A stretch of DNA of 64,000 bases from assembly GCA_902524345.1 (NCBI GenBank), contig CABZCX010000001.1, positions 377,001-441,000 on the forward strand. Reading direction: 5' to 3'. This DNA is from an uncultured Pelagibacteraceae bacterium. GTDB taxonomy: Bacteria; Pseudomonadota; Alphaproteobacteria; Pelagibacterales; Pelagibacteraceae. Position numbers and translations under genes: made by a program. Positions 20,595 to 63,597 of this stretch are shown piece after piece (position 1 is the first letter of the stretch; every line of letters starts with the position of its first letter). The notes below the pieces were generated by a model. The model had not been told where the DNA came from and ran no database searches. It worked only from the letters and a program-made list of their open reading frames with translations.

Positions 20595-20668
20595 TGGGGC
20601 GTAGCCAAGCGGTAAGGCACGGGTTTTTGGTACCTGCATCCTAGGTTCGAATCCTAGCGCCCCAGCCA
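20595..20668 (+). tRNA. tRNA-Gln (anticodon TTG)
   Basis: A full cloverleaf can be drawn. The acceptor stem is TGGGGCG/CGCCCCA with discriminator G and an encoded CCA. The D-arm is GCC...GGC. The anticodon stem CGGGT/ACCTG encloses the loop TTTTGGT with anticodon TTG, and the T-arm is CTAGG TTCGAAT CCTAG. U1-A72 is usual for tRNA-Gln. The gene downstream starts only three bases after the CCA. Confidence 0.96.
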
Positions 20669-29732: not shown

Positions 29733-30491
29733 TTAATTAATCATAATTATTGAAATATTTCTACCATAATCATTAAGATTTAATTTTAAAGATCTTCTTG
29801 CACTGAAAAAATTATTTTTTTTATCAAACGTATCAATTTTAATCATATCAATTTTATTGATTTTTTGGGATTTAAGTTGAGTTTTGACATAATTTGGTAG
29901 GTCAAAATAAATTAACTTTTTTTTATTTTTAAAGAAAATTTTGTTTTTTTTGTGTTTTTTAATAAATTTTTTTTTAAAGTCAGCTTTTACTTCGTAGTTT
30001 TTTTGAGCAATTGATGGACCAATTGCTCCAATAATATTTTTTGGATTACAGCCTTTTTTAGTCATAAAATTGATAACGGTTTTAATTATGCCTTTATATG
30101 CACCCTTCCAACCAGCATGTATAGCCGCGATAATTTTTTTTTTATAGTCATATAATAACACTGGCACGCAATCAGCTGTCAATACAGCTATTGGAAGTTT
30201 TTTTTGGTCAGTTAAAATTGCATCAGCTTTAATCTTTTTTTTTAATTTAGAATTTTTATTAAGAAAAACCAACTTATTGCTATGCACTTGATGTACTAAA
30301 TAAATATTTTTTGTTTTTTTTCCTATTTTATTTTTGACAATTTTTAAATTTTTTAAAATGTTATTTTTTTTATCAAGAGAACCGGCGCCGCAATTAAGGC
30401 TTTTATATATTCCCTTTGATTTACCTCCATTCTTATTAAAAAAACCATGACTTATATTTTTATTTTTTAATAATTTTTGAGAAGTGATCAG
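29733..30491 (-). CDS. pgeF: Peptidoglycan editing factor PgeF/YfiH (laccase-fold), probable CTG start
   Basis: The DUF152 fold is recognised by the metal ligands [16 protein letters not shown] and AIHAGWKG, plus the N-terminal HGFFNKNGG...[13 protein letters not shown] at 30287 would remove the N-terminal third, including those conserved blocks and the first ligand. The frame stays open to a TAG at 30501-30503, with no ATG, GTG or TTG in between. CTG at 30489-30491, with AGGA placed 7 bases upstream, is the best start and gives 252 residues, the usual length. It lies 1 bp after the midA stop. Family members edit D/L-Ser errors in muropeptides or oxidise purine nucleosides. Confidence 0.8.
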
Positions 30492-30492
30492 A

Positions 30493-58281: not shown

Positions 58282-58338
58282 ATGAGCCCATTAATGCAGT
58301 ATTGTACTAACATAATTGCATCAGTTAGGTGCAAATAG
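58282..58338 (+). CDS. Possible 18-residue leader peptide
   Basis: An ATG at 58282 preceded by GAGAGGA (8 bases away) opens an 18-codon frame that ends in TAG at 58336-58338, 11 bp before the next gene's ATG. The predicted peptide is MSPLMQYCTNIIASVRCK. The ribosome site is stronger than most in this window. It may be a translated leader; without comparative data it could be chance. Confidence 0.35.
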   Translation: MSPLMQYCTNIIASVRCK

Positions 58339-58349
58339 AAATTAGGCGC

Positions 58350-59699
58350 ATGAATAATGATTTCCATCAATTTCAAAATTATCAAAAAAATAACGAATAT
58401 CAATTTATAAATAACATGTTTTTTGGAGTAAAAAAAAAGGAAACGATCAAAATAGATGACACTAGCAGTAAAGATTTAGAGCTGGTAACTAAAATGAATC
58501 AAGAGTTTGCAATGTCTCTTGATTTAAAAGAAACACTTAATAACTCATTAGAATTAATTATAAAAAGAATTAATGCACAAGCAGCAAATATTTTTTTAAT
58601 AGATAAAAAAAATCAATCGTTCCAATGTATTGCTTCAAAACATCAAGCATATCTTGAAGATTTTGAAATCCCAATTACTCAAGGAGTTATGGGAAAAGCT
58701 GCAGTCATGAAAAAATGTATTAGAGTTGGTGATGTTAGAAAAGATATTAGAGAAATTGCAGAATTTTATTTCGATTTAGATAATAAAACAAATTTTACAA
58801 CTTATTCAGTTCTATGTTCCCCTTTAATTGTATCGGATGAATGTATTGGCGTTATTCATTGCTTAAATAAAAAAACTAACAATAAACTTTTTGAAGAGAA
58901 TGATAGAAAACTTTTAGAAACTTTGTCTGGTCCAGCTGCATTAGCAATAAACAATGCTAAGATGGCAAAAGATTTAGTTGATAAGAATAGAATGCAAAAA
59001 GAAATTGAAATTGTTGGTGAGATACAAAAAACTTTGTTGTCACAAAATAAAAAAGAAAACTTTCCTATAGCAGGAATAAACATCCCAGCAAAAGTTGTAT
59101 CAGGAGATTTTTATAATTTTTCTGATCTAGGTGATGGTAAATTTGGTTTTGGTGTTGCAGATGTATCTGGTAAAGGAATTAAATCTTCCCTTTTAATGTC
59201 AAAGGCTTCGAGTCTTTATCGATGCTTAAGTAAAACAATTTTTTCTGCTGCTGATTTATTAAACTTACTTAATTCTGAAATTTGTGAAACAGCTGCACGT
59301 GGAATGTTTGTAACAATGCTTATAGGTGTTTACGACAGTAATAAAAAAGAATTACTACTTGCTAACGCAGGACATGAACCACCACTAATTCATTCTAAAG
59401 ATGGAAAATTTACAAACTTTAGTGAAGCAGGTCCGCCTTTAGGAATTATGTCGAAGATTAAATACAAAGAGACAAAAATAAAATTTTCTGAAAGTTCGAT
59501 GTATGTATTCACTGATGGTATAACAGAAATGAAGGATCCTAAAGGTAACATGTTAGAGTCCGATGGTTTCAAAAATTATATTACAAAGTATCAACAAACA
59601 CCTAATCACGAAAGATTAAATAAAATTGTTGAGGATATAATTAAGTCTGGTCGTATTCAAAAAGATGATCTGACTATTGTTGTTGTAGACGGAGCATAA
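58350..59699 (+). CDS. GAF-SpoIIE (PP2C-type) serine phosphatase
   Basis: The protein (449 residues from ATG 58350; a GTG at 58329 is possible) has a GAF sensor domain (about residues 55-200, with MGKAAVMKKCIRVGDV and YSVLCSPLIV). A SpoIIE/RsbU phosphatase domain follows, with metal Asp residues in KVVSGDFYNF, GVADVSGKGIKSSL, ANAGHEPPL and VFTDGITEMKD. Such proteins dephosphorylate anti-sigma antagonists. No STAS antagonist or kinase partner is in the window. Position among pilus genes suggests control of piliation. Confidence 0.88.
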   Translation: MNNDFHQFQNYQKNNEYQFINNMFFGVKKKETIKIDDTSSKDLELVTKMNQEFAMSLDLKETLNNSLELIIKRINAQAANIFLIDKKNQSFQCIASKHQAYLEDFEIPITQGVMGKAAVMKKCIRVGDVRKDIREIAEFYFDLDNKTNFTTYSVLCSPLIVSDECIGVIHCLNKKTNNKLFEENDRKLLETLSGPAALAINNAKMAKDLVDKNRMQKEIEIVGEIQKTLLSQNKKENFPIAGINIPAKVVSGDFYNFSDLGDGKFGFGVADVSGKGIKSSLLMSKASSLYRCLSKTIFSAADLLNLLNSEICETAARGMFVTMLIGVYDSNKKELLLANAGHEPPLIHSKDGKFTNFSEAGPPLGIMSKIKYKETKIKFSESSMYVFTDGITEMKDPKGNMLESDGFKNYITKYQQTPNHERLNKIVEDIIKSGRIQKDDLTIVVVDGA

Positions 59700-60140: not shown

Positions 60141-60378
60141 TAGATAAATTTTTCATAAATTAAATATAGAATTTACAATTTTCGAGTGTAATGGAGTGAA
60201 AATATTAAACTCTAACACATAAATCTAAAACTCTAACACAAAAAATTCCAAATTTAGAATAATTTTACTTTTTGTTGATTTTATTGACTTTTTTAATAAA
60301 AAATTAAAATTGAATATTCTAACACAAAATAGAAATACTCTAACACAATTAAATATTTATGATTTGTGTTAGAGTTTA

Positions 60379-60396
60379 TTTAAATCTAGATTTAAA
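60379..60396. repeat. 18-bp perfect palindrome inside the array
   Basis: TTTAAATCTAGATTTAAA is self-complementary over 18 bp and lies between copies 5 and 6 of the array. It may be a further protein-binding site or a hairpin; palindromes built of A/T are frequent in AT-rich DNA, so significance is uncertain. Confidence 0.6.
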
Positions 60397-60483
60397 ATTT
60401 TATATTTATAAATTATTTTAATTTGTAAAAAATGTCTATTTTGTTGACTTTTTTACTATTTAGCTCATTTTGAACATATATTT

Positions 60484-60489
60484 TATAAT
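60484..60489 (+). promoter_or_regulatory. Candidate -10 box of the pilMN-pilO-pilP operon
   Basis: A perfect TATAAT lies 75 bp before the ATG at 60565. No consensus -35 is found at 17 bp (TAGCTC). TTGACT at 60444 is too far away (34 bp). The array copy at 60492-60501 covers the expected start of transcription, so a protein bound there would repress or otherwise control this promoter. Confidence 0.4.
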
Positions 60490-60564
60490 TTTGTGTTAGA
60501 CTAAAGTAATATTTTGTGTTAGAGATTCGTTAAATTGTGTTAGAGAAAAAATTTTAATTTGTAT

Positions 60565-62892
60565 ATGAACGATCAAGACGACGAAAAAAAAATTATTGAA
60601 GAGGAAAGGTCTCAGTCAGAAACTGAGAATCAATCTAAAGTTGATGAAAATAATCAACCTGAGGGTGTAGATAATCAAAAAAATGATCCTGTCTCTGACT
60701 CAAATCAAAATAATAACGAAAATAATGATCAAACACAAAATTTAGATACATCTAGTGAAAAAAAAGATGAAGATAATGGATCCTCACATGAGGTAATCCA
60801 TAAGAAAGACGGAAGGTTACATATTTATATCCGACAAGACAAATACAAAGGTGAATTAAAATCAAAAAATTGGGTTGGGAGACTTTATCATGATGGAAAA
60901 CAAAAAATTTCATCATCAGGAACTCCTAATTTGGAGGAAGCAATACCAATTTTAGAAAAATGGTTTGACGACGTTGTTGCGGGAAAAGAAAAAGAAAAAG
61001 AAATTCAAGAGCAACCTGTTAAAACTGAAGAAACATCTGTTCAACCGGAAACTTCAACTCAAATTGTTAATAAAGAACAAACGAGTCAAACAACTACGTT
61101 AACCGAACCTAAAATTGACGATTCTATTTTAAATCAATCAACAGAGGACGAACAAGAAAATAAAAAATCAAAATTTGCTTTTTTAGACAATATAAAAAAT
61201 ATTAAATTTAAAAAGCCAAGCTTCTTAGAAAAAAGTTCAGTTTCCAAACCATCACTCAAAACTAATGAACTTTCGAAAAAAGTTACTAGCTTTTTTAAAT
61301 CTAAAATTGGAAAGTCAGCAGTTAAAGGAGAGGAAATTGTTGGAGTTGAAATTACAAACAAAGAAATAAGATTAGCCCAAGTATCAACTAATAAATCAAA
61401 TCAATGGGTATTGGATAAATTTTATGCGCACCCAGTTGACTTACCAGATGACGCAAATGTTTTAGATAATGGAGAAAAATTAGGAGCAGAACTTACAATT
61501 GCATTACAAAAATCTAAAATCACAACTTTAAATGCTGCTATTGCTATACCTGTCACAAGCGCAATTATTAGAGTTGTAACAGCACCGTTGATGAAAGAAG
61601 AGGAATTGCAAAAAGCAATTGAAACTAATTCACTTTGGGAAAATTTAGTTCAGTTAACTGATAATTTAGACGATTATTCAATTTTCCATCAAGTTATTAA
61701 TAGAAACGAAAAAGCTAACACAATGGATATTTTGTTTGTTGCTTCAAAATTGGCTGACATAAATAATTATACCTCAATAATCAAGCAAAGTAATCTCAAC
61801 CCAGTTATAATTGATGTAAAATGTTTTGCATTAAAATCTGCTGTCGATCAAATTAATCAAATCTCCAATAAAGTTGACGATGTAAATCTTACTGCGGTTT
61901 TGGAATTTGGTTTAGATGAAAATTACTTAATGATTTTATACGACAATAATCCAATAATTACTGATATTTTTTTAAGAGGCCAAGATAGAAAAATATTATT
62001 AGAATCGCAGGATGTTGAAGAAAAAGAGGCATTAGTAAGAAGATTTTTAACTCAAGTAAAACAAGCTGTTCAAGATTTTGAGACCAAATATGAGAAAAGA
62101 ATAAGAAACATAAAAGTAGTCTCGGATTTAAAAAATGTTGAGGATTTTTTGTCAAGTTTTAGAAAGGGTTTATTAAATGTTGGCTTTAACTTATTTGATC
62201 CAATTGATGGATTGTTAATCCCTCAGCAAAATAAAGAAAAAGTAGATTTAATTAACAGATCATATCTATCGTCAGTTGTAGGTCTTGCTTTTAGAAAGTT
62301 GGATGTATTTGGCTATTATAAATTTGTTACCGCCGTTAAAAATATAAACTTACTTCCTAACAGAAAAGGCATGATTAAAGAAAAAAAGATGAAAGCTTTT
62401 TCAAGTTTTGCTTTCAAAGGTATAGCTGCTTCAGTAGCTGCAATATATATAATTCTTTTTGGCTTATCTTTCTGGAACATCCAATCATACAATAAAAAAC
62501 TAGTTAATTACAACACTGTCCTAAAAACTCATAAAGCTAAAATATCTGAACAAAAGAAAATTAAAAAAGAGTTAGCTATAATTTCAAATACCTTAAAATT
62601 GAGTAAAAGTTTAAAATCAAATAAGCAGAATAGTTATAGAGTTTTAGCTCAAATTGCTATGAGTGTTCCTAAAAGAATAAAATTTGCGTCAGTTGAATAC
62701 AATGGCAAAAATAAAGTAATTATAAAAGGTCAGGCTGCTACCGATCAAGACATTTTGAAGTTAATTAATAATTTAGGGGCGCAGCAGTTAGTTGTACAAG
62801 CATCATTAGGTAAAATGAATTACAAAGGTAAGGCTGGGGACTCTGCTGATATTAAAAAGAACTTTACAGTTTTTGTGGATGTTAAGGGATAA
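60565..62892 (+). CDS. PilM-PilN fusion protein of the type IV pilus inner-membrane platform
   Basis: The 775-residue protein has several parts. Residues 1-72 are an acidic, Gln/Asn-rich disordered part. Residues 82-138 are a small strand-strand-strand-helix domain (GRLHIYIRQ, NWVGRLYHDGK, LEEAIPILEKWFDDV), followed by another charged linker. A PilM-like actin fold runs from about 255 (IVGVEITNKEIRLAQV). The PilN part begins with NINLLP (593-598), then one membrane span (617-640) and a periplasmic ferredoxin-like domain. In most bacteria PilM and PilN are separate and PilN docks onto PilM through INLLP; here they are joined. A TTG at 60559 is rejected in favour of the ATG at 60565. pilO follows after 3 bp. 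Confidence 0.85.
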   Translation: MNDQDDEKKIIEEERSQSETENQSKVDENNQPEGVDNQKNDPVSDSNQNNNENNDQTQNLDTSSEKKDEDNGSSHEVIHKKDGRLHIYIRQDKYKGELKSKNWVGRLYHDGKQKISSSGTPNLEEAIPILEKWFDDVVAGKEKEKEIQEQPVKTEETSVQPETSTQIVNKEQTSQTTTLTEPKIDDSILNQSTEDEQENKKSKFAFLDNIKNIKFKKPSFLEKSSVSKPSLKTNELSKKVTSFFKSKIGKSAVKGEEIVGVEITNKEIRLAQVSTNKSNQWVLDKFYAHPVDLPDDANVLDNGEKLGAELTIALQKSKITTLNAAIAIPVTSAIIRVVTAPLMKEEELQKAIETNSLWENLVQLTDNLDDYSIFHQVINRNEKANTMDILFVASKLADINNYTSIIKQSNLNPVIIDVKCFALKSAVDQINQISNKVDDVNLTAVLEFGLDENYLMILYDNNPIITDIFLRGQDRKILLESQDVEEKEALVRRFLTQVKQAVQDFETKYEKRIRNIKVVSDLKNVEDFLSSFRKGLLNVGFNLFDPIDGLLIPQQNKEKVDLINRSYLSSVVGLAFRKLDVFGYYKFVTAVKNINLLPNRKGMIKEKKMKAFSSFAFKGIAASVAAIYIILFGLSFWNIQSYNKKLVNYNTVLKTHKAKISEQKKIKKELAIISNTLKLSKSLKSNKQNSYRVLAQIAMSVPKRIKFASVEYNGKNKVIIKGQAATDQDILKLINNLGAQQLVVQASLGKMNYKGKAGDSADIKKNFTVFVDVKG

Positions 62893-62895
62893 TTT

Positions 62896-63597
62896 ATGGA
62901 TTTAAAGAATATTAGTTTAGATTTAAAGAACATCAACCTAGAAAGTGTAAAAGCTAAAATTAAATCTATAGATAAAAAAATTCTAATTAAATTTGGTATT
63001 GGATTCTTATCAGTAATTGTTTTTTTAATTATTTATTACGCGGTTTTAAGCCCAATTGTTGAGAAGAAAAAAGCTCAGTTGGATAACATGCAAAAAAAAC
63101 AAGCTGAGATAACAAAGATGAACCAAGAAATTAAAGCTAGTAAAGCTAAAATAAAAAAACTTACTCCTCGATACGAGCAATATTCTACTTTATTTCACAG
63201 TAAAGCTGAGGTGGAAGGTCTTTATGAGACACTTAGTGAATTCGCTGGGATAAACAACTTAGTTATTTCAAAGATTGAAAAGGGCAAACCAAAGCCTATA
63301 ACAAAGGCATCAGCTATTGCCTCTACTGATACAAAGAAAAAGAAGAAAAAGAGAAAAAGAAAGAAGAAAGCTGACACCAGTGTTAAAAAAAATATTGCGT
63401 ATTACAGAATACCTGTAAATTTTCAAATAAAGGGCAATTTTCTTGGATATATTAAGTTTAAGAGACAAGTAGCTATGTCTCAAAAAATGTTAAATTTTGA
63501 CAAAGAAACAATTAAAGTGATAAAAGGGGATACAACCAGTACGGTAGCAGTAACTGGGGTATTAACAATAGTGGGTTTACCAGATGAATTTTTTTAG
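62896..63597 (+). CDS. pilO: Type IV pilus alignment protein PilO
   Basis: The 233-residue protein has a short cytoplasmic N-terminus, one membrane span (FGIGFLSVIVFLIIYYAVL, about residues 33-51), a coiled coil (EKKKAQLDNMQKKQAEI...) and a periplasmic domain. That domain begins with YSTLFHSKAEVEGLYETLSEFAGINNLVI, typical of PilO. A Lys/Arg-rich insert (KKKKKKRKRKKK) near residues 147-160 is unusual for a periplasmic domain. It would pair with the PilN part of the preceding protein. It overlaps the next gene by 14 bp. Confidence 0.85.
   Translation: MDLKNISLDLKNINLESVKAKIKSIDKKILIKFGIGFLSVIVFLIIYYAVLSPIVEKKKAQLDNMQKKQAEITKMNQEIKASKAKIKKLTPRYEQYSTLFHSKAEVEGLYETLSEFAGINNLVISKIEKGKPKPITKASAIASTDTKKKKKKRKRKKKADTSVKKNIAYYRIPVNFQIKGNFLGYIKFKRQVAMSQKMLNFDKETIKVIKGDTTSTVAVTGVLTIVGLPDEFF

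Follow-up and report, generated by a model that had tools for sequence, protein, structure and literature searches.

According to excerpts of two papers (PMC8138268, PMC2951348), tyrosine integrases with arm-binding domains use these domains to bind arm sites, and in the first of them the domains are described as three strands and a helix. There is also a precedent for regulation: integrase genes can be repressed by their own product via arm-type sites that overlap the promoter (PMC2951348, in excerpt), the autoregulated intS gene of KplE1 being the case most pertinent here. The locus considered below lies in a window of 64,000 nucleotides from an uncultured Pelagibacteraceae bacterium. Like the arm-binding domains of P4-like (DUF4102) and Tn916 integrases, the domain encoded at this locus has predicted strands and a helix, occurs at the N-terminus of integrases and goes with near-identical sites; it differs in having a pilus platform protein as its fusion partner and no recombinase domain beside it, and no Pfam family matches it. 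As for intS, as far as the excerpt of PMC2951348 describes it, arm-type-like sites lie upstream of the gene for the binding domain, and in one lineage within the promoter. Here, however, the gene encodes a membrane-anchored pilus protein, the array is larger (5-9 sites in the full-length loci) and neither an att core nor a recombinase was found. We take membrane-tethered factors of the ToxR/CadC type to share the general plan, a cytoplasmic DNA-binding domain on an inner-membrane protein, but the predicted DNA-binding fold is a different one at this locus and the portion in the membrane belongs to the structure of the pilus platform.

The array precedes a pilM-pilN fusion gene (Table 1). Between positions 60210 and 60545, eight copies of CTCTAACACA are packed into 336 bp, six of them exact and two with one mismatch, the first four in forward and the last four in reverse orientation. 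Three pairs are spaced by exactly 21 bp (60210/60231, 60317/60338 and 60515/60536) and 60492/60515 by 23 bp, and 19 bases separate the end of the array at 60545 from the pilMN ATG at 60565. A preliminary description, made from the letters of the stretch, had recorded this arrangement of copies, mismatches and 21-bp pairs and a distance of 20 bp to the ATG, and our coordinates bear it out. It was also right that the full motif occurs nowhere else in the window: ten matches at up to one mismatch were found against 2.9 expected, and the two outside the array both carry a single mismatch. The array had further been placed in the only long non-coding stretch; its gap of 553 bp is indeed the window's longest between ATG-started ORFs of at least 60 aa, but the runner-up, at 30066-30492, measures 427 bp.

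The array is not a chance product. In 3000 first-order Markov simulations of its own 566-bp region the mean count was 0.018 and the maximum 2, as opposed to the eight sites observed. It is also unique within the genome: in the 1.08-Mb assembly (90% complete) the sole other exact 10-mer lies inside a gene read as hisF, and one-mismatch copies, array included, number 30+31 against 24+28 for a reversed-pattern control. The frequent random occurrence that the preliminary description had considered is thus absent from the assembly. A genome-wide regulon with this motif was ruled out as well, there being no excess of sites elsewhere in the assembly.

Table 1. Features of the array and the pilMN locus, in coordinates of the window.
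Feature	Position	Strand	Remarks
GAF + SpoIIE-type phosphatase gene, upstream neighbour	58329..59699	+	Pfam
site 1	60210..60219	+	CTCTAACACA, exact
site 2	60231..60240	+	exact; 21 bp from site 1; 21-bp pair kept in relatives
AT-rich block TGTTGATTTTATTGACTTT	60273..60291		between sites 2 and 3; mostly kept across 19 aligned sequences
site 3	60317..60326	+	TTCTAACACA, 1 mismatch
site 4	60338..60347	+	exact; least conserved site among relatives
site 5	60365..60374	-	exact
site 6	60492..60501	-	GTCTAACACA, 1 mismatch; same-position G in many relatives
site 7	60515..60524	-	exact
site 8	60536..60545	-	exact; 19 bp upstream of pilMN ATG
pilM-pilN fusion gene	60565..62892	+	775 aa; PilM_2 E 6.9e-17, PilN E 7.3e-5
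arm-binding-like N-terminal domain	60784..61002	+	residues 74-146, flanked by polar low-complexity stretches
PilM core	61342..61956	+	residues 260-464, Pfam match
predicted transmembrane segment	62413..62475	+	about residues 617-637, hydropathy
PilN region	62638..62868	+	residues 692-768, Pfam match
next operon gene, PilO-like by position	62896..63597	+	T2SSM match below threshold only

The AT-rich block at 60273-60291 reads TTGATTTTATTGACTTTTTT and has a partial second copy at 60433-60450; a similar block was noticed by eye in class-2 loci, and the copy at 60273-60291 may be a DNA-bending site. The hexamer GATTCG (60524-60529 in the window) comes right after the last site but one in roughly half of the listed class-1 loci and stands immediately 5' of the ATG in several class-2 loci; it is perhaps near a transcript start.

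The array is conserved in Pelagibacteraceae, and so is much of its geometry. Our spacing survey was given 93 loci and used the 82 with at least four sites; in raw counts over these loci, many of which are closely related, 258 of the 280 same-strand neighbours no more than 60 bp apart are separated by 20-23 bp, and the remaining 22 by 11 (5), 19 (2), 29-32 (6) or 51-54 (9) bp. Opposite-strand neighbours in the same 82 loci stand 15-16, 25-27 or 35-36 bp apart, values that are about one helical turn from one another. The spacing looks like helical phasing, which would place the sites on one DNA face. The binding mode proposed in the preliminary description agrees with these spacings as far as specific, conserved and cooperative-looking sites on one face are concerned; looping between the two arms, which it also suggested, would be probable. 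Both spacing and orientation are kept in close relatives and other layouts appear in more distant lineages. Seven loci of other genera in the family (L226-L232) pair the domain with 8-9 sites, counted with a looser nine-base pattern allowing one mismatch, in layouts that are partly different.

The array clearly tracks the 73-residue N-terminal domain and not pilM itself. In the window's own genome and 60 relatives, 18 of the 61 genomes gave a PilM-N match; the array is present at all nine pilM loci that encode the domain and at none of the nine others, where the fetched locus has not one motif copy at up to one mismatch. Conservation upstream of pilM orthologs, as initially envisaged, therefore holds where the domain is present and fails at pilM loci that lack it. 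In a draw of 399 Pelagibacter genomes, many of them partial assemblies and the related ones not independent, the domain was found in 74 and a paired motif (two copies 9-14 bases apart) in 68, all 68 within the 74. The six domain-positive genomes without the pair are G303, a spurious match that is counted in the 74; G146, with the domain in an integrase alone; G174 and G235, which have five and four sites at other spacing; and G284 and G345, whose contigs end near or inside the gene. The PilM fusion itself occurs in about 72 of these 399 Pelagibacter genomes and, in other samples, in several genera. Inspected by eye, the paired-motif matches listed all lie beside the domain, the exception being G300, whose domain and pair stand at the ends of two contigs.

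A similar picture comes from the named loci, of which 181 were found and 80 examined. Sites number 5-9 in each of the 59 that extend at least 1400 bp upstream; among the 21 with less than 1400 bp, 17 have 2-8 sites and four have none, namely L132, which ends inside the gene, L152 and L162, with 202 and 37 bp upstream, and L153. In L153 (positions 1-540) an inverted phosphatase gene fragment is joined directly 5' of the domain, a junction that probably arose as a chimera during amplification for a single-cell assembly. The named gene relatives come nearly all from uncultured Pelagibacteraceae or Candidatus Pelagibacter, with one of the 80 in a record labelled as a gammaproteobacterial MAG. A wider domain search covered 71 genomes, with upstream regions read in a minority of them, and also returned G551 (a contig-end fragment), G096 (E 9e-4, in a 497-aa frame) and a second G117 match with stops.

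These co-occurrence counts are inflated by shared ancestry, as one gain and one loss explain them. In a PilM-core tree of 47 rows, from which L022 (core identical to L021) and L027 (24% identity) were left out, the domain appears in two deep branches. Six Pelagibacter rows that lack the domain group in a single nested clade (97/94), which lacks the array as well and adjoins L192, where both are present (joint support 99/100). The remaining row without the domain, L026, is a distant outgroup; the root rests on its very long branch, and its place drew a tool warning. A shorter tree had the same outcome, with 23 domain rows, 7 rows without it and two changes. The most economical history would have domain and array gained once and lost together once.

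That the array is missing wherever the domain is missing bears directly on the idea that a separate transcription factor, such as a LytTR-type response regulator, binds the array and that the PilM domain is unrelated. LytTR sites are typically 21-bp direct repeats, a habit that the roughly 21-bp direct repeats of the array match, and pilus genes are often under response regulators. We nevertheless regard this explanation as improbable, since in addition to the co-occurrence the array unit is one base away from the sites of certain integrases (see below) and sites are not in excess elsewhere in the genome. A LytTR regulator in particular was ruled out: a search for this one regulator family in the 90% complete genome gave no LytTR protein over the cut-off and a single sub-threshold match, which has stops.

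The domain occurs once in the genome and is under purifying selection (pS 0.61, pN 0.038; 120 pairs from 16 loci), much as is a PilM block (pS 0.71, pN 0.044). Outside pilus proteins, the nearest relatives that the host genomes yielded are the N-terminal parts of two tyrosine integrases, in G146 and G456. With the window PilM, the G146 integrase N-terminus shares 51% identity (E 4.5e-19), and judged from this alignment the domain is homologous to the N-terminus of a tyrosine recombinase. An AlphaFold model (pLDDT 87.4) places strands at residues 12-21, 24-36 and 39-44, a helix at 50-72 and a short extra strand at 4-7; the predicted fold, a three-stranded sheet with a C-terminal helix, is arm-binding-like. 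In a structure comparison of 993 aligned chains, the top three were integrase arm-binding domains (3rmp, 3jtz and 3ju0, Z 5.5-5.9), a weak match in that Z is below 8, an unrelated mitoribosomal protein follows in fourth place at Z 5.3 and rows within 1 are tied; AP2 domains scored about 4. Foldseek against the PDB gave nothing at E <=0.001, a profile search of PDB sequences found no match, Pfam assigned the 73 residues to no family, PHROGs returned only families of unknown function (best phrog_17986, E 6e-4) and annotated phage genomes yielded a lone weak match to a tape-measure gene (E 0.4). Because the structural matches are weak, the arm-binding identity rests mainly on the homology to the integrase N-terminus. 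A PilM fused to such a DNA-binding-like domain is not described in the titles and abstract openings of the best-ranked papers on PilM with a DNA-binding domain, SAR11 pili and pelagiphage integrases, nor in those on domesticated arm-binding domains, AP2-integrase domains and tycheposons in relation to SAR11.

The domain also occurs in IMG/VR phage-like contigs (L110-L114, for example L112:1828-2175), on small proteins (about 113-116 aa) whose C-terminal segment is hydrophobic; the three that were aligned are 40-46% identical. There is no exact TCTWACACA site in the 5.3-8.2 kb fetched for these contigs, and the domain may have another use there.

The two integrases provide the link between the domain and the sequence of the sites. 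That of G146 has 423 aa and a Phage_integrase match (E 9.7e-8, Pfam run on this protein), and that of G456 is 69% identical to it. As a query against 329 genomes, the G146 integrase gave 67 matches, 65 of them confined to its first 137 residues, and integrases with the domain were found in only these two genomes; the same query found no match in annotated phage genomes, and the IMG/VR scan with the full integrase confirmed nothing. Each integrase gene has as neighbours a tRNA-Leu(caa) gene and a stretch resembling a truncated tRNA-Leu. In L109 (7982-10229) and L225 the element comprises the tyrosine integrase, the adjoining tRNA-Leu, a resolvase-type serine recombinase and, on the far side, the truncated tRNA-Leu-like stretch, and it resembles the tRNA-carrying islands of other marine bacteria.

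We scanned 600 bp per integrase gene (200 bp before and 400 bp after) for the array unit ACTCTAACACAA, which was not derived from these elements. At up to two mismatches the flanks contain 4 and 5 copies, compared with simulated means of 0.09 and 0.12 (counts that none of the 2000 simulations run for either gene reached); with one mismatch at most they contain 1 and 2 (5 and 0 of 2000 simulations), and the reversed pattern gave 0 and 1. The main form in the flanks is ACTCTTACACAA, a unit chosen after viewing them, which occurs three times per element at up to one mismatch and differs from ACTCTAACACAA at one central base. Because near-identical sites flank homologous integrases, the array is best understood as a group of arm-type sites, the comparison covering two integrases. 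The preliminary description knew of no regulator for the motif; the likeness to arm sites escaped it, as did the probable binder, the N-terminal domain of the adjacent PilM-N fusion.

We do not call the array an attachment site because Pfam found no recombinase domain in the pilMN protein and six neighbouring ORFs and because no tRNA gene lies near it, the only one in the window being tRNA-Gln at 20595; a role as attP or integration site was rejected for the same reasons. Nor was anything found in favor of a phase-variation site, as had been proposed at first, these seven proteins being free of recombinase domains. Another conceivable role is defence against the tRNA-Leu element, as a decoy or in immunity, with the array or the PilM domain in competition with the integrase over arm-type sites; alternatively, the array could be an attP relic. 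The element does have near-identical sites and a homologous domain, and G456 carries both the integrase and a fused-PilM-sized ORF with the domain. That genome equally shows that the fusion does not exclude the element, however, and the element is rare (2 of 329 genomes) when set against a fusion spread over several genera; together with the one-base difference between the sites and the lack of a recombinase domain and nearby tRNA gene, this makes either version very improbable.

In one sister lineage of related loci, 7 of 8 scanned loci (L090, L091, L093, L226, L228, L229 and L230) contain a near-consensus promoter, TTGACA-N17-TATT(A/G)T, with TGTGTTAGAA in the spacer, and L232 of the same lineage is without it. 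As read from these sequences, the spacer site occupies a repressor-type (operator) position in that lineage. The 16 further loci scanned (seven from other lineages and nine of class 1, including the window) have no such promoter, for an overall count of 7 of 24, and matches to a sigma-70-like pattern are no more frequent in the window than chance predicts; the overlap with a presumed promoter that had been described for the window is seen in the sister lineage only. In the seven loci the domain is at the extreme N-terminus, as in integrases, with the sites directly upstream, and this arrangement suggests that sites and domain were captured together.

The PilM-N chain of the window combines the DNA-binding-like domain (residues 74-146) with a hydrophobic segment (about 617-637). 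The usual PilM/PilN layout, which we assume to apply here, would put the N-terminal domain in the cytoplasm. We lean towards the view that the array is an arm-type-site operator, bound by the PilM-N domain, that shuts down or tunes the pilMN operon. Binding of the array by the domain, repression by that binding, looping of the halves and an assembly-state signal are what we infer, and they could fit together as follows: (i) PilM would have acquired an integrase arm-binding domain, probably along with arm-type sites; (ii) PilM-N would be anchored in the inner membrane, with the domain held in the cytoplasm on long flexible linkers; (iii) several PilM-N copies in the platform, or free PilM-N prior to assembly, would bind the phased sites cooperatively; (iv) the two oppositely oriented halves of the array would probably loop; (v) bound PilM-N would damp transcription of the pilMN operon and (vi) the proportion of free versus assembled PilM-N might serve as the signal. 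Negative feedback is the most likely mode of control, and a membrane-tethered pilus platform probably senses or controls its own operon in many SAR11. More tentatively, with our opinion close to evenly balanced, we propose that the pilus platform is a site-specific DNA-binding machine that keeps its own operon at the base of the pilus, whereby the state of assembly would feed back directly on transcription without a separate regulator.

Several of these features would also suit a mainly physical role, in which the domain binds the array and docks the pil locus at the inner-membrane platform (transertion-like coupling, positioning or segregation). The domain sits on a membrane protein with polar low-complexity linkers, the phased sites are many and fall into inverted halves, array and domain are each single-copy in the genome, the relatives on phage contigs likewise join the domain to a hydrophobic C-terminal segment and, outside one lineage, no promoter was found under the sites. 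In that one lineage, however, the promoter-spacer site of 7 of the 8 scanned loci is in an operator position, and one clade dispenses with domain and array altogether. We consider docking as the main role unlikely, and prefer an operator bound by the PilM-N domain.

With regard to the surroundings, the GAF/SpoIIE phosphatase gene at 58329-59699 adjoins a prepilin peptidase gene. The phosphatase is possibly a partner-switching regulator, and a genome of this kind has few regulators. We do not tie it to the array because relatives keep the array beside other neighbours: an MFS-type gene in L192, a divergent gene read as a pilT-type ATPase in L090, L093, L229 and L232, and the end of a gene read as pilY1 in L096, L098, L104 and L231 (for the pilT-type genes a Pfam T2SSE match was obtained in L019 and L192 only, the others being assigned by reading). 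What varies is the upstream side; the array keeps its place at pilM.

SAR11 cells are very abundant in the ocean and have few regulators. If our reading of the locus is true, a structural pilus protein with its own operator-binding domain would make a one-protein regulatory circuit, and DNA recognition from a mobile element would have been recruited to run a cell-surface machine. It would also offer a directly testable handle on the timing of pilus production in SAR11.
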